This document shows, piece after piece, positions 3,296 to 20,064 of a stretch of DNA of 63,735 nt. Where the stretch lies: the IMG/VR virus record IMGVR_UViG_3300042319_001709, positions 1 to 63,735 of that record. The stretch is one strand, 5' to 3'. The notes below the pieces were generated by a model. That model was given only the letters and a program-made list of their open reading frames with translations, was not told where the DNA came from and did no database searches. The DNA is from a virus. How positions within the stretch are numbered: position 1 is the first letter of the stretch; each line of letters starts with the position of its first letter. The translations under genes were made by a program, and so were the position numbers.

Positions 3296-5350
3296 TTACT
3301 TGCTTGTGGCTCTAAACACACCGTCCCAATCGCCGGGCAAGTTGGCCACACGCATTTCTGCAATACGTTCAACCCATAATTCGTAGTAATGGGTCATTTT
3401 TCCGTCAAATTCATCCTTGATGGTTTCAATCAAGGCAAGAGTCTTGTCCCACTGCTGTTTACGATAGTATTCTAACATCAAGTCGTGAATCTCTTTGGCA
3501 TGATTCCATTTGGACATTTCCTCAGCGGTGGGATTGTAGAACACTGTGTATATGGTTACACCTTCTTTTTTGCCCTTGACTGCAATACAGTCTAGTTCAA
3601 TTGTGAAATAATCAGTGCCCAATCGTTCAGCAGTGGCTGGGCCTAACACAATTAAAACTCCGTAATTTTTACTTTGTCCTTCGAGCCTACTAGCCAAGTT
3701 AACAGCGTCTCCAAGGCAGGTGTAATCAAACCTTTGTTCGCCGCCCATGTTGCCAACCACAACAACCCCAGTATTACAACCGATCCCAAGACCAAAAGGA
3801 GGCACGCCTTCTTCAGCAATTTCATCATTAAATATTTTAACGGCATCCAACATCTCCAGTGCAGCCTTAACAGAATCTTTCGCATGTTTAGTATTATCTA
3901 ACGGTGCGTTCCAAAATGACATTGTAGCATCACCGATGTATTTGTCAAGTGTGCCTTCGTTTTCAAGAATGACTTTGGTTACCACAGTCATATAACGATT
4001 CATGATTTTGGTTAGACCTTGTACATCTTTACCATAGTGTTCACTAATACTAGTAAAGCCACGCACATCGCTAAACTGAATTGTCAAGTCTTGTTCTGTT
4101 CCGCCTAGAACCAGTAAACTAGGATCCTTGACCAACTTGGCCACAAGATCTGGACTCAAGTAACTACCGAACTGTTTCTTGATCTGTTGCTTTTGCAAAA
4201 ACTCACTCACAAACTTTACCATAAAGGCATGCAAAGCGACCAAGCCAATGCCAACTGCAAAGGCAGCACTATCGAATAAGAATAGGTAATGGCTATAAGC
4301 AAACATACTGCCAGCAATGACGCTGCCAATCGTAACCACAGTTGCCGCAATGCCCACATAAGTCCACCTCATTAAAAAGATTAATAAAATGCCAGCCAAT
4401 GCAATGCTGACTATTTCTAGCTCATCGGCGTATCCAGGACGTTGAATTGATGTGCCACTCAACATTGTGCCTAACAAACTAGCCTGTAGTTCTTGTGGCC
4501 AAATTTCACCTCGACTGGTTGCAATTGGGTTTACAAGTCCTGCCGCACTCAGACCAACAATGACAATTTCGCCATTGAAGTCCTTGGGCAAATCAGCCAG
4601 ACTATGTTGTGAGGGACGCTGGCTCCAATCAATCCAAACACGGCTTAGCGGGTCCACTGTGATTTTGTTTAGCTTGGGAACCCTAAGTGCCTCTACACCC
4701 ATGTCTGTGATTTTAACTTGTATCTTTGTGTCGCCTGCTGCCAGCCTCAAAGTTTCCAATGCCAAACTAGGATGTATAGTGTCTTGGCTCATGATCAACA
4801 AAGGCATACGTCGAACAACGCCGTCAATCTCTGGGAATGTATTAACGACTCCAACACCGGCTGCACGTTCTTCTAGCATGGGAACGTTGGCAATGATACC
4901 AGGATACTCTACCAACGTGCCGTGTGCATCTTGACCCACAACTTGAACAGCTGATCCAAATGTAGTGTTTTTACTTTTGGAACCAGCCACTTGAGGCAAC
5001 ACAGTGGCGTATTGTCCAAGAGCTTTGCTCAGTTGAACATCGCCACCAAATCTGTCAGACTCGGGCATGAGCACGTTAAACACAACCAATCCAGCATTGC
5101 GCTTGTAAAGATCTTCAATGATGGCAGCATAGGTTGTTCGCGGGAATGGAAATTGTCCATATTTGTCCAATGCCGCTTCGTCGATGTTTACTGTGTGTAC
5201 TGGTATTTCTTTGGCAGGTTGGCTGGTAACCAATTGGTCAAAGTAGCGTAGTCTCACGCTTTCAACAAATGTAGGATCCCAGGCACGTACCAGCATCACT
5301 ATTAACAAGGTGAGCAAGGCAGTCCATGGGTTTAGTAATACTTTTTTCAT
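3296..5350 (-). CDS. CHASE2-domain adenylate cyclase
   Basis: 684 residues. N-terminal TM (about 8-24), extracytoplasmic CHASE2 sensor domain (about 30-300), a cluster of TM helices (about 308-375) and a class III nucleotidyl cyclase domain (about 415-610). Catalytic positions are intact: metal-binding D428 (FSDVRGFT) and D474 (KYIGD), purine-contacting K470 and T544, and N551/R555 (NLASR). The K/T pair indicates ATP rather than GTP as substrate. It should make cAMP in the cytoplasm in response to a periplasmic signal. Gene order places it downstream of the FecR and curlin genes, and CHASE2 cyclases commonly neighbour FecR proteins in bacteria. Confidence 0.93.
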   Translation of the reverse strand: MKKVLLNPWTALLTLLIVMLVRAWDPTFVESVRLRYFDQLVTSQPAKEIPVHTVNIDEAALDKYGQFPFPRTTYAAIIEDLYKRNAGLVVFNVLMPESDRFGGDVQLSKALGQYATVLPQVAGSKSKNTTFGSAVQVVGQDAHGTLVEYPGIIANVPMLEERAAGVGVVNTFPEIDGVVRRMPLLIMSQDTIHPSLALETLRLAAGDTKIQVKITDMGVEALRVPKLNKITVDPLSRVWIDWSQRPSQHSLADLPKDFNGEIVIVGLSAAGLVNPIATSRGEIWPQELQASLLGTMLSGTSIQRPGYADELEIVSIALAGILLIFLMRWTYVGIAATVVTIGSVIAGSMFAYSHYLFLFDSAAFAVGIGLVALHAFMVKFVSEFLQKQQIKKQFGSYLSPDLVAKLVKDPSLLVLGGTEQDLTIQFSDVRGFTSISEHYGKDVQGLTKIMNRYMTVVTKVILENEGTLDKYIGDATMSFWNAPLDNTKHAKDSVKAALEMLDAVKIFNDEIAEEGVPPFGLGIGCNTGVVVVGNMGGEQRFDYTCLGDAVNLASRLEGQSKNYGVLIVLGPATAERLGTDYFTIELDCIAVKGKKEGVTIYTVFYNPTAEEMSKWNHAKEIHDLMLEYYRKQQWDKTLALIETIKDEFDGKMTHYYELWVERIAEMRVANLPGDWDGVFRATSK

Positions 5351-5378: not shown

Positions 5379-5609
5379 TCACCCGGAAGTTTTAACTACT
5401 TCCAGTATGGTAATTTCTAATACTCTATGCTTGCGATAATGCATAAAATTTTTGAACTTGGCTTCTATGTCCCGTTGAATGTATTCGTCATGGTAGGGCA
5501 TGGTGGCCGTGTCTTCGTAAGGCTCGTCGTTTTCGTTTAACGCTATGAAGCTGAGCTTGACTGTGCCTTGTTCTGGCTCTTTAAACATTTTAACAAGTTT
5601 ACTGAGCAT
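5379..5609 (-). CDS. 76-residue protein, unknown
   Basis: The ATG at 5607-5609 is chosen because the longer frame would overlap the upstream curlin-repeat gene; this start sits 8 nt after that gene's stop. The protein is charged and apparently soluble, with no signal peptide, unlike its neighbours. It may be a cytoplasmic accessory of the curli-like locus. A second ATG seven codons on is also possible. Confidence 0.6.
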   Translation of the reverse strand: MLSKLVKMFKEPEQGTVKLSFIALNENDEPYEDTATMPYHDEYIQRDIEAKFKNFMHYRKHRVLEITILEVVKTSG

Positions 5610-5617
5610 AAGAATAG

Positions 5618-7009
5618 TTATTGTCCTTGTGTTACACTCACACTGCATCCCGAAAGTGTGGCACACTGTTGTGTAATGTTGATGTTTTGTGCTGTGGCAC
5701 CCTGCTGAACAAGTGTGACATTACTAGCACCACCTGCATTGGTCAAATTAATTGTGGCTTTGTGACTGCCAGCATCCTTTTGATTGGCACTGACATTATG
5801 TCCGTTACCTGTTAAACTTAGATCAAGGAAACTTCCTGTACCCTGTTGTGAGATATCAAATATGTTGGTACTGCCGTTAATAATACCAAAGAATGTTTTC
5901 TCGCCGTTGCCTGTTTGTTTTAGTGTTCCGTTGTTGTTATTTCCTGTAACATCAACATAGGCAAAGTGCCCACTAGTGGAGCCGCCATCGTTGGCTTGTT
6001 TTAGGCTCAATGTGTTGGTACTGCCGCTGATGTTTAGACCCATATAATGCCCGCCGCTCTCGCTAGCATCTTGTAGGCCTGTTGTAGGATTACGTGCTTG
6101 CCAGAGTGAGATATTGTTTGTATTGCCTGCGATGTTAAATTCAATCAAGTTCTTGCCCAATGTGTCGCCTTGCTTGATGTTGATAGTATTGCTGTCACCA
6201 TTGATAACAGCATAGTTGGTGCCACCTAGTCCTGCAATTTTGTTATAGTTACCAGTTTGTTCAACAGTTACAGAGTTACTACTGCTACCAATTTTTTGAT
6301 CAATGTAAACGCTGTTACCTATTGTAAGATTATTATCTCTTGTTTTGGCAGCATTTCGTTGTGTAATCTGTGATGCAGTTATGTCACTATTCTCTGGCCA
6401 GGTGGGTGCGGCAGTACCCCCACCTCCTCCAGAGGATGCTGTTTGTCCAGCAGCCAAAGGCGTTGAACTAGGTGGTGTATATGCTTGTAATTGTGCATTT
6501 GATGGATATTCTTGTGTTACAGCCCAACTACCACTGCTACCGTTGGTGTATCCTTGTCCGGTAGTGATAAGTGTTCCCCACATCCCATTTCCATTGTAGA
6601 ATATAGCGCCATTGGCTAATGCTCTGAACGATCCTGTATTGTTGATTATTTTATATTTTGTACCATCACTGTTAAACACAGCCATGCCATATGTCCCAGG
6701 ATTGGTTGTGCTAGCAAAGAATCCAATATATCTTCCGTTACTACCGGCATCAGCAGTTTGCGCCGCCGTCCATCTTGCCGCGCTGGCTGTTTGTGTGGAA
6801 TAATTTATAGATGCATAGATGTAGTTAAACCCGCTGGCATATAACGTACCTCCCGATACATACCACTGTACATCAAATATCTGTGCTGTACTAAGTTTTA
6901 AGTCTGTAATTGCGGCCTGCGAGCATTTGGAAATACTCATTAGAAATACTGCAACAATTAACCATGCCCAGTATTTTGGTCTTGCTGAATAAAAAATATT
7001 TTTAATCAT
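5618..7009 (-). CDS. Large secreted curlin-repeat protein
   Basis: 463 residues with an N-terminal hydrophobic segment (about 14-32) acting as a signal or anchor. Residues 35-190 form a separate Ser/Thr/Gly/Tyr-rich domain. The C-terminal half (about 225-463) is a run of imperfect N/Q/G repeats of about 20-25 residues with the pattern G.xN.x.I.Q.G, typical of CsgA/CsgB curlin strands. Its start overlaps the FecR gene by 4 nt. It could be a fibre subunit, nucleator or adhesive tip. Cysteines near the C terminus are unusual for curlins. Confidence 0.8.
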   Translation of the reverse strand: MIKNIFYSARPKYWAWLIVAVFLMSISKCSQAAITDLKLSTAQIFDVQWYVSGGTLYASGFNYIYASINYSTQTASAARWTAAQTADAGSNGRYIGFFASTTNPGTYGMAVFNSDGTKYKIINNTGSFRALANGAIFYNGNGMWGTLITTGQGYTNGSSGSWAVTQEYPSNAQLQAYTPPSSTPLAAGQTASSGGGGGTAAPTWPENSDITASQITQRNAAKTRDNNLTIGNSVYIDQKIGSSSNSVTVEQTGNYNKIAGLGGTNYAVINGDSNTINIKQGDTLGKNLIEFNIAGNTNNISLWQARNPTTGLQDASESGGHYMGLNISGSTNTLSLKQANDGGSTSGHFAYVDVTGNNNNGTLKQTGNGEKTFFGIINGSTNIFDISQQGTGSFLDLSLTGNGHNVSANQKDAGSHKATINLTNAGGASNVTLVQQGATAQNINITQQCATLSGCSVSVTQGQ

Positions 7010-11382: not shown

Positions 11383-11928
11383 TTAGTGATGACCTTTGAC
11401 TTTGCCTTTGATCGCATCGGCAATGGCATCCTCCATGGTAATAGCAATCATTCCAGTTGCATCCATGCCCATGTCGCGACATCGAAATTGTTCCATTCCA
11501 CTCTCGCCACCATGCAAGTGACCGTGCAAGTGAACAGCACCCCTGTGCATTTGGTCCCACTCAGCAATGGGGTAGTGGAACATCACAACCTTTGTTCCAT
11601 TATAGTTGATGTCTAGGTACTTGTGTACTTCTAGGAAACATCTTCGGAAAGTGGGATCATTGAGTATCTTGCGATCATGGTTGCCTTCGATCAATATTTT
11701 TGTGCCATTGCAACGATTCATGTACTCTGCTGCTTTTTGTGCAGGCAAGAAAGCCACATCGCCGAGTATGTAAACTTTATCTTCAGGTGCAATCAAGTCG
11801 TTCCATTCCTTGATCATTGCCTCGTTCATGTAGTTTACATCATTGCGAAACCGAGCACGTGACACTGAACAAAAACTCATGATGTTGGTATGTCCAAAAT
11901 GCAAATCGCTGGTTACGAATGTTTTCAT
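11383..11928 (-). CDS. Calcineurin-like metallophosphoesterase
   Basis: 181 residues with all motif blocks of the family: SDLHFGH near residue 6, GDVAF around 55, EGNHDRK around 82, HYP around 125 and HGHLHGG around 141. These ligate two metals for phosphomonoester, phosphodiester or nucleotide hydrolysis. The size and the DLHFGHTNI variant match small phage and bacterial phosphoesterases. Substrate unknown. The ATG at 11926-11928 begins 6 nt after the -10 box of a consensus promoter, so the mRNA is probably leaderless. Confidence 0.88.
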   Translation of the reverse strand: MKTFVTSDLHFGHTNIMSFCSVSRARFRNDVNYMNEAMIKEWNDLIAPEDKVYILGDVAFLPAQKAAEYMNRCNGTKILIEGNHDRKILNDPTFRRCFLEVHKYLDINYNGTKVVMFHYPIAEWDQMHRGAVHLHGHLHGGESGMEQFRCRDMGMDATGMIAITMEDAIADAIKGKVKGHH

Positions 11929-11934
11929 AGTTGT

Positions 11935-11963
11935 ATTATACACTTAACTGAATACTTTGTCAA
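11935..11963 (-). promoter_or_regulatory. Consensus sigma70 promoter
   Basis: TTGACA (11958-11963) and TATAAT (11935-11940) are both perfect, with 17-nt spacing. The expected transcription start coincides with the A of the phosphoesterase ATG. Confidence 0.87.
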
Positions 11964-12449: not shown

Positions 12450-12541
12450 TGGTACCTCCGCCGGGACTCGAACCCAGATGAACCAATTATCTGTTGCTTA
12501 CGGGATATAAATCCGCCGTTTTACCATTAAACTACAGAGGC
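12450..12541 (-). tRNA. tRNA-Ile (TAT), atypical variable arm
   Basis: Acceptor GCCTCTG/CGGAGGT, D-stem GTTT/AAAC, T-arm with TTCGAGT loop and an encoded CCA. The anticodon loop TTTATAT gives TAT (Ile, AUA); the innermost stem pair is an A-C mismatch. About 22 nt lie between the anticodon and T stems, a class II-sized variable region not expected in an Ile tRNA. Identity therefore needs checking. Confidence 0.65.
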
Positions 12542-12546
12542 ATTAT

Positions 12547-12622
12547 TGGTTGCGGGGCTTGGATTTGAACCAAGGATGGCAAAGGCTTATGAGACCTCGC
12601 TGGTGACCGGACCCTCCCCGCG
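12547..12622 (-). tRNA. Initiator-like tRNA-fMet (CAT)
   Basis: Acceptor CGCGGGG/CCCCGCA has the C1-A72 mismatch that marks bacterial initiator tRNAs, with an encoded ACCA end. Anticodon loop CTCATAA gives CAT. The T-arm carries GGTTCAAATCC as in E. coli fMet. The three G-C pairs normally found at the base of the initiator anticodon stem are not intact here (GAGGT/GCCTT). Confidence 0.82.
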
Positions 12623-12633
12623 ATAACTTTATA

Positions 12634-12751
12634 GGTGCTCTCTGTTGGAATCGAACCAAACTGTTTAACTCCGTATCTTCCTGGCACTTTCGGTAGTTAG
12701 TCGACTTAGTACCTAACTCGTGTTATCCAGTGTAGTTAAACTTCAAAGAGC
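12634..12751 (-). ncRNA. tRNA-like RNA with expanded core
   Basis: A 7-bp acceptor GCTCTTT/AGAGAGC and a T-arm with GGTTCGATTCC are present, followed by ACCT rather than CCA. The rest is not a cloverleaf: an 8-bp helix (734-741 with 663-670 of this 12-kb block) joins the two sides, and a further stem AGTTAG/CTAACT encloses a 12-nt loop. The arrangement recalls the tRNA-like domain of tmRNA, but no tag ORF is seen. A decayed or intron-bearing tRNA is the alternative. Confidence 0.45.
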
Positions 12752-12965
12752 ATTTATAAAGTGTCCGGCTACTCTCACCACAAGAGCCCCGGACTGGGCT
12801 GTCTACTCCGTCTACGTATTTGTTCTTATGGTAAAGGTTAGCGTTCCTCACCCTAGGCAGTTTTCAGTATCTCCGAACAGGAGACTGTAAGGTCAGGTCC
12901 TAGTGTACCCCCTGGTCTATCGTTACAGGGACGCTATTTCGTTAACGTAGAAATAGTAAGACGGG
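12752..12965 (-). ncRNA. Structured noncoding island upstream of the tRNA-like RNA
   Basis: No ORF. On the minus strand there are strong hairpins in series: CTATTTC/GAAATAG, CCCTG/CAGGG, AGTCTCC/GGAGAxACT and GTCCGG/CCGGAC enclosing CTCT/AGAG. A structured transcript linking the gene at 12971-13543 to the tRNA cluster is likely. No known RNA family recognised. Confidence 0.4.
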
Positions 12966-12970
12966 GTCTG

Positions 12971-13543
12971 TTAGATCAGGCCTTCTGCTTGTAGCACACG
13001 TTCAGATTCGGTGCTCAACTCAATTGTGGTACGCACATTGAGTTCCAGTAACTCGTCTTGTAGACGTTGCTTGGCTTTCTTGGCCAAAGTTACCACAGTT
13101 TTAAACCCATCAATGTCACTGTTAGTCAACACAGATGTCTCAACACTCTCGCCCATGCCATACAAACTTGCACGACTGTCTTCTTTGCGATTGCGAATCT
13201 TGTCCAATTTACCAGACAACACTTCTGTGGCCAGTCTCTCAGACTTTGACACAAACACTGTGTAGAAGTTTACTTCTTTCTCAAGTCGAGCAATTTCGGC
13301 CAACTTGCGATCAACTCCGGCAGCACTGTTGGCTTGTCCAACTGCCTGGCGAATTTGATACAATACAGTGGTCAACGCATCGCGCCGTCCAATGTTTGTT
13401 TTCAACTTGGTCACAGCTTTGAGAACTTCTTGTTCAGCATCCTGAAATTCGTTGATGCTGATCTCGGTAGTCACATCAATATTCTTCACAGCATCATTGA
13501 TGGCATTTTGCAATGTATTGGCTTTACGTAGTGTAATATTCAT
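12971..13543 (-). CDS. Coiled-coil protein, unknown
   Basis: 190 residues, almost all alpha helix with heptad-like spacing (about 35-70, 85-125 and 150-185). No signal peptide, TM segment or catalytic motif. The ribosome binding site AAAGGAAA precedes the ATG. It is flanked on both sides by hairpin-rich noncoding stretches and tRNA genes. It could be a structural or nucleic-acid-organising protein; function cannot be assigned. Confidence 0.7.
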   Translation of the reverse strand: MNITLRKANTLQNAINDAVKNIDVTTEISINEFQDAEQEVLKAVTKLKTNIGRRDALTTVLYQIRQAVGQANSAAGVDRKLAEIARLEKEVNFYTVFVSKSERLATEVLSGKLDKIRNRKEDSRASLYGMGESVETSVLTNSDIDGFKTVVTLAKKAKQRLQDELLELNVRTTIELSTESERVLQAEGLI

Positions 13544-14273: not shown

Positions 14274-14348
14274 TGGAGTCGCATACGGGTTACGATCCCG
14301 TCTGGTCACCTTGAAAGGGTGATGACCTCACCAGAAGTCTAATGCGAC
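14274..14348 (-). tRNA. tRNA-Glu (TTC)
   Basis: Perfect acceptor GTCGCAT/ATGCGAC, discriminator T, encoded CCA, anticodon stem TCACC/GGTGA around CTTTCAA giving TTC (Glu, GAA). Confidence 0.9.
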
Positions 14349-15090: not shown

Positions 15091-17006
<1,916 letters not shown>

Positions 17007-19986: not shown

Positions 19987-20064
19987 TGGTGGGCCGTCTG
20001 TGAGTCGAACACAGCACCAATGGATTATGAGTCCACTGCTCTAACCAGCATGAGCTAACGGCCC
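19987..20064 (-). tRNA. tRNA with CAT anticodon (elongator Met or Ile2)
   Basis: Acceptor GGGCCGT/ACGGCCC, encoded CCA, anticodon stem-loop GGACTCATAATCC with CAT. The C1-A72 mismatch of initiators is absent. It is either elongator Met or an AUA-reading Ile tRNA whose C34 would be converted to lysidine; sequence alone does not decide. Confidence 0.88.

Follow-up and report, generated by a model that had tools for sequence, protein, structure and literature searches.

An initiator-type tRNA with a rebuilt body encoded by large phages

The locus at 12547-12622 raises the question of what kind of tRNA a phage encodes there and what it may use it for. The window, that is, the whole 63,735-nucleotide stretch of DNA analyzed here (IMG/VR virus record IMGVR_UViG_3300042319_001709), carries the gene on the minus strand, with the tRNA sequence CGCGGGGAGGGTCCGGTCACCAGCGAGGTCTCATAAGCCTTTGCCATCCTTGGTTCAAATCCAAGCCCCGCAACCA; tRNA position i corresponds to window coordinate 12623 − i. 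The original prediction described a phage-encoded, initiator-like tRNA with C1·A72 and a CAT anticodon, in which the three G-C pairs at the base of the anticodon stem are partly lost (GAGGT/GCCTT). This description holds: C1·A72 is read directly from the sequence, ARAGORN labels the gene tRNA-Met(CAT), and pairs 29:41 and 30:40 are intact, with U·G at 31:39. The phage-encoded and initiator-like character is likewise borne out by a family of such genes in viral contigs, by the CAU anticodon, and by the unpaired 1:72. Larger anomalies were overlooked, namely, a rebuilt D-arm and a rebuilt anticodon arm (Table 1). With the Rfam tRNA model, 12547-12622 falls below the gathering score and nine other window tRNAs are detected, so that annotation may overlook such genes or call them plain tRNA-Met. 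The gene is also missing from the list of matches at E ≤ 5 covering the region, and the family covariance model CM R1 scores it at 102.3 bits.

Table 1. Features of the initiator-type tRNA locus in window coordinates
Feature	Coordinates	Strand	Basis or remark
Sole start of the leaderless type within the window (TTGACA-17 nt-TATAAT-6 nt-ATG)	11926..11963	-	Promoter/start spacing scan
Complete gene of the initiator-type tRNA (76 nt, with CCA encoded)	12547..12622	-	ARAGORN; CM R1; 42 sequences
A73 and CCA	12547-12550	-	3' of acceptor strand
Acceptor 3' strand, positions 66-72	12551..12557	-	Pairs 2:71 to 7:66 in 33/33 aligned
Normal T-arm, loop TTCAAAT (part of the search pattern)	12558..12574	-	Pairs in 99.4% of T-stem cells
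3' half of the anticodon stem (positions 37-44), one bulged nucleotide	12579..12586	-	RNAalifold
Anticodon loop CUCAUAA; anticodon CAU at 12589-12591	12587..12593	-	Invariant in family, CTCATAA being required by the search patterns themselves
5' half of the anticodon stem (positions 23-29), forming 7 bp with 37-44	12594..12600	-	Covariation 23:44, 24:43, 25:42, 26:41, 27:39
Reduced D-arm: G9-C21, G10-C20; G11 and A19 invariant; loop GG kept	12602..12614	-	Pair counts, consensus structure
Connector A8, single nucleotide between acceptor and D-stem	12615..12615	-	Consensus structure
Acceptor 5' strand, positions 1-7; C1 faces A72 (unpaired)	12616..12622	-	Sequence
Conserved structured RNA, ~340 nt, abutting the tRNA 5' end; separate, possibly cotranscribed	12623..12970	-	Conservation, predicted pairs
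190-aa protein of unknown function	12971..13543	-	Initiator-type tRNA downstream in many relatives

Pattern scans, which may overlook divergent members, retrieved 42 distinct family sequences in 87 IMG/VR loci, a count in which a contig may be represented by more than one locus. One scan fixed only CACC, CTCATAA, and GTTCAAATC, and another left the D-arm and the anticodon stem both unspecified; since two scans left that stem unspecified, the result for it was not built into the search. The window tRNA is not a product of chance, because the identical 76-mer occurs in about 10 other phage contigs in which the 150-nt flanks are merely 43 to 69% identical and because the 42 sequences share one common covarying structure. 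The carriers are large, mostly freshwater viruses of bacteria, and many hold 20 to 38 tRNAs; the nearest proteins are those of phages of Methylophilales, Pelagibacter, and Sinorhizobium/Agrobacterium. Members score 78 to 102 bits with the family model, versus about 49 to 53 bits for the bacterial initiators of three genomes. Exactly one match of 90 to 102 bits is found in 19 of 22 phage contigs, including the largest (356, 354, 340, 300, and 262 kb). In contigs G004 and G021, a canonical-shaped initiator accompanies the rebuilt one, which is thus not the sole initiator of every carrier, and in a further contig (G022, locus L030) there are two low-scoring matches, of which that at 5565-5636 resembles a further reduced relative.

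Outside viral records, the exact pattern had no match in 84,980 prokaryote genomes, and a looser pattern retrieved one true member (L293, CALMJT010000176.1) on an 11-kb contig that GTDB includes in an Alteromonadales MAG. As this contig carries a 16-tRNA array beside the phage 190-aa gene, we take it to be a phage contig that was placed in the MAG by binning. A BLAST search of cultured phages with the tRNA gave partial or canonical-shaped matches only and, at that sensitivity, no isolate with the rebuilt form. The rebuilt initiator thus appears to be restricted to phages.

The architecture was determined from an alignment of 33 family sequences, the rows of which are not independent. When these sequences were folded by RNAalifold without constraints, the connector came out at 1 nt, the D-stem at 2 bp, and the anticodon stem at 7 bp, the last with a bulge on its 3' side; canonical tRNAs have two connector nucleotides between acceptor and D-stem. 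In this alignment, standard pairs occupy 98.8% of cells, versus at most 51.4% for slid versions, and pair counting revealed double-sided changes in 12 pairs and 141 cells. The covariation signal is carried by the extra pairs of the anticodon stem, as 23:44 (G-C, C-G, or U-A) and 24:43 (C-G, U-A, or A-U) each occur in three pair types. With a canonical 5-bp anticodon stem, 26:40 would be unpaired in 16 of the 33 sequences. The bulge is position 40 (12583) or, in an alternative register, position 42 (12581), to which, as we read the sequences, it can move in some members, e.g., L300. In the U31·G39 wobble, canonical position 39 is occupied by G37 of the sequential numbering. The register of the D-stem is fixed by one member (L126) that exchanges G10-C20 for U10-A20: the register preferred by the energy model (10:21, 11:20, and 12:19) is broken by this member, whereas 9:21 and 10:20 hold. 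U8 and A14 are both absent from the window tRNA, as are the 2-nt connector, the 3- to 5-bp D-stem, and the 5-bp anticodon stem of the canonical cloverleaf. Covariation shows that the molecule has a 7-bp bulged anticodon stem, a 2-bp D-stem, and a 1-nt connector.

The determinants of initiation are in large part retained within this altered body. The 1:72 position is mismatched in 36 of the 42 sequences (C·A in 21, A·A in 10, U·U in 3, and C·U in 2) and is a weak pair in the other 6 (U-A in 4 and A-U in 2), G-C being found in none; retention of the end mismatch by several kinds of mismatch is as predicted by selection for an initiator. Acceptor pairs 2 to 7 are formed in 33/33 aligned sequences, with the formylation helpers G2-C71 and C3-G70 equally present in all 33, where GC at positions 2 and 3 belonged to some of the search patterns. 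A tRNA with an unpaired 1:72 and with G2-C71 and C3-G70 is thereby destined for formylation and initiation and barred from elongation. In the anticodon stem, 30:40 is G-C in 42/42 sequences and 29:41 is G-C in 35/42 and A-U in 7/42; U31·G39 is found in 42/42, so that the three G-C pairs of bacterial tRNAfMet are not present as such, and the CAU anticodon of that tRNA is. The formylation helper pair 11:24 is missing, the D-stem having only two pairs, and some members carry U73 instead of A73. As the three G-C pairs and the canonical cloverleaf are lacking, we class the molecule as initiator-like and not as a canonical tRNAfMet. To judge from these features, it most likely works like an initiator.

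That P-site selection would be lost with the altered stem is not supported, as the A-minor pairs 30:40 and 29:41 remain. In the ribosome, A1339 and G1338 of 16S rRNA grip the initiator by A-minor contacts with 30:40 and 29:41 (PMC11497404); the lost pair 31:39 lies outside this contact, and the orientation of the other two is unchanged. A 1:72 mismatch with 2:71 and 3:70 aids formylation (PMC7949028). An initiator function is therefore plausible, with the A-minor pairs in the same purine-pyrimidine orientation and the 1:72 mismatch, 2:71, and 3:70 supporting formylation, and we regard it as very probable.

In related phages, the 190-aa gene is followed by initiators of canonical shape, many of them with U31·G39 and A29-U41. 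U31·G39 also occurs in the canonical-shaped initiators of the cultured phages Klebsiella Seu621, Vibrio phi-ST2, and Vibrio PG07, and canonical-shaped phage initiators at L288, L291, L292, and many IMG/VR loci often have it; the 30 canonical-shaped “TG GC GC” sequences come mostly from a pattern requiring that stem and are biased as a measure of U31·G39 frequency. Such initiators (L012, L022, and L025 and Klebsiella phage Seu621) share with the rebuilt family an unpaired or weak 1:72 and often U31·G39, and several of them follow the 190-aa gene, but theirs is a body with a 4-bp D-stem, a 2-nt connector, and a 5-bp anticodon stem. Of 398 Pseudomonadota genomes, 261 matched the G31-C39 initiator pattern and 0 matched the exact U31·G39 one, so that the form is shared by none of the bacterial initiators tested. 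Given the canonical-shaped phage initiators with U31·G39 and its absence from these genomes, the change at 31:39 seems to be a trait of phages and to be older than the rebuilding of the body, an order that we infer.

The conservation of the tRNA contrasts with that of its surroundings. At L132, for example, the tRNA is identical to that of the window and the neighboring 190-aa protein is 43% identical. Identical tRNAs in diverged flanks can be explained by strong constraint, gene exchange, or both, and a recent spread might likewise account for conservation as strong as this. In a tree of the 190-aa protein, rebuilt and canonical tRNA forms are intermixed, and well-supported branches force at least three changes, which makes exchange between phages likely; the intermixing of carriers and noncarriers fits exchange as well as selection.

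Between this gene and the tRNA, the conserved RNA at 12623-12970 shows 80 to 90% identity across extended stretches in several relatives in which the adjacent protein is about 50% identical. Its predicted fold has 77 pairs, 30 of them with compensatory changes, and includes a hairpin resembling a T-arm and a long closing stem; the RNA had no Rfam match at E ≤ 0.5, with chance-level scores only. It is probably not a tmRNA, since ARAGORN makes a separate call of a permuted tmRNA (tmRNA*) in some carriers. These tmRNA* genes (L021, 9243-9688; L024, 11215-11600; L029, 1442-1886; L139, 10735-11151) encode tags that end in ANESRYALAA, ANESAYALAA, or ANDADFAMAA in related phages. Also in the window, the 92-nt tRNA-Ile(TAT) at 12450-12541 (minus strand) has a long variable arm and a type II shape, which is normally that of Leu, Ser, or Tyr tRNAs; the form recurs among many relatives (L011, L013, L019, L025, L113, L123, L132, and L139), and the amino acid with which this AUA-reading tRNA is charged is worth checking. 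A tRNA-Glu(TTC) at 14274-14348 (minus strand) has the odd T-loop ATCGTAA, versus TTCGAAA-like loops. The window further encodes a GroEL (15091-16710, minus strand, PHROG 5725), with up to 80% identical relatives in other viral contigs, and at 3296-5350 (minus strand) a full-length match to a protein annotated as adenylate/guanylate cyclase in Methylophilales phage Melnitz and Pelagibacter phage HTVC008M.

The best explanation overall, which we hold to be reasonably probable from the sequences compared, is that the phage encodes an initiator-type tRNA whose body has been rebuilt and which would start translation during infection. The tRNA would be formylated and enter the P site, the G39 change and the rebuilt arms would conceal it from host factors that disable tRNAfMet, and phage initiation would outlast an attack on the host initiator pool. 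Counted against this explanation are the loss of 11:24, U73 in some members, and the two contigs with both initiator shapes. Enteric VapC toxins cleave tRNAfMet between A38 and C39 (PMC4105405), and U31·G39 places G39 instead of C39 directly beside this scissile bond. Other VapCs likewise target tRNAfMet (PMC8522696), Met-tRNAfMet is acetylated by AtaT (PMC7180214), and phages have been proposed to carry tRNAs resistant to host tRNA nucleases (PMC10264068). Weighing against evasion, an eLife study reports that phages usually avoid tRNAfMet where VapC targets it. Evasion of toxins that target tRNAfMet, which G39 beside A38 and the rebuilt arms would suit, is a tentative proposal, conceivable but somewhat short of probable.

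A different use of the same tRNA would be to direct initiation, such that the tRNA together with a phage bS21 or altered host ribosomes favors phage starts and the body is a specificity device, not a shield. bS21 is above the Pfam cutoff in 7 of 20 carrier contigs and peptide deformylase is present in 3 of the 20, and phage bS21 has been tied to late replication in other huge phages (PMC9723584). On the other hand, bS21 was not seen in 13 of the 20 and IF3 in none, counts to be read with the caution that carrier contigs may be fragments and that a missing bS21, IF3, or second initiator is no proof. Moreover, phage genes retain Shine-Dalgarno sites, without a visible change in the pattern of start sites, and we consider this use unlikely. 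That the molecule is a nontranslational tRNA mimic, serving for instance as a host-enzyme decoy or as a primer for replication, would suit its unusual body and its position next to the conserved structured RNA, but the anticodon loop, 30:40, the encoded CCA, the T-arm, and the 1:72 mismatch are all retained and the gene sits within arrays of otherwise ordinary tRNAs, which makes such a role very improbable. Covariation contradicts the reading as a degenerate or pseudo-tRNA, an elongator, or an Ile2 (CAU) tRNA. The score under the Rfam threshold and the missing 11:24 pair, U8, and A14 would agree with that reading; the base-for-base conservation amid unrelated flanks, the maintained 1:72 mismatch, and a separate CAT tRNA with a paired 1:72 at 19987-20064 in the window leave it exceedingly doubtful.

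Least credible is the original suggestion that the tRNA is suited to leaderless mRNAs, several of which were thought to be present: one perfect TTGACA-17-TATAAT-6-ATG does occur in the window and a small class with exactly 6 nt recurs in relatives, but a promoter is placed for a leaderless start in 1 of 67 window genes and in roughly 2% or less of 679 genes of relatives, Shine-Dalgarno matches of at least 4 nt are strongly enriched (before 31/67 window genes [46%] versus 5/67 [7%] when shuffled), and the A-minor pairs of the tRNA are kept, so that the link is weak.

The preferred reading of a rebuilt initiator can be set against known tRNAs. Bacterial tRNAfMet (E. coli metY/metZWV type) shares the unpaired 1:72, CAU in CUCAUAA, G30-C40, and the T-loop TTCAAAT, and its acceptor stem in E. 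coli is identical to that of the window tRNA. The phage family differs from it in having U31·G39 for G31-C39, sometimes A-U at 29:41, a 7-bp bulged anticodon stem, a 2-bp D-stem, a 1-nt connector, and no 11:24 pair. Features of the body recur elsewhere: tRNAPyl shares the 0- or 1-nt connector between acceptor and D-stem and the small D-loop, and, especially in Methanomethylophilus alvus, a longer anticodon stem with one unpaired nucleotide on the 3' side (PMC7609411). It differs in its CUA anticodon, 6-bp anticodon stem, 3-nt variable loop, and paired G1-C72, a combination not found here, and it is not an initiator; well-studied tRNAPyl lacks the G18G19/TPsiC signatures, which the phage family keeps. 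Mammalian mitochondrial type I tRNASer(UCN) shares the 1-nt connector, a longer anticodon stem, a reduced D-loop, and the G18G19/TPsiC contacts (PMC7609411), but it is a serine elongator with a 3-nt variable loop, a 6-bp stem without a bulge, and UGA, as opposed to the 7 bp with a bulge and CAU found here. Initiators and phages are nowhere mentioned in that review. The nuclease-evading phage tRNAs (PMC10264068) share a change at a known cleavage site of host tRNA nucleases; theirs are changes in the anticodon loop, whereas in the rebuilt initiator the changes affect pair 31:39 of the stem and the body as a whole, and tRNAfMet enters that study only as a tRNA avoided by phages. In a targeted literature search, with subscription journals and preprints outside its coverage, no phage initiator tRNA of such a shape was described, and we found no earlier description of the rebuilt shape for a start tRNA.

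Initiator tRNA is among the most uniform of bacterial RNAs, and a natural family with a rebuilt body, conserved in diverged phages, allows one to ask directly what the ribosome, IF2, and methionyl-tRNA formyltransferase require of an initiator. In this family, 1:72, 30:40, and the anticodon stay, while 31:39, 11:24, and the D-stem are changed. The rebuilt shape could serve engineered initiators as a scaffold. More speculatively, a lineage of large phages might have swapped the standard initiator for a new structural class, with a lengthened, bulged anticodon arm and only a remnant of the D-stem, that would satisfy the ribosome, IF2, and the formylase, go unrecognized by host factors acting to destroy or modify tRNAfMet, and provide a private initiation pool. 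The family also makes translation initiation a possible front in the conflict between phages and their hosts.
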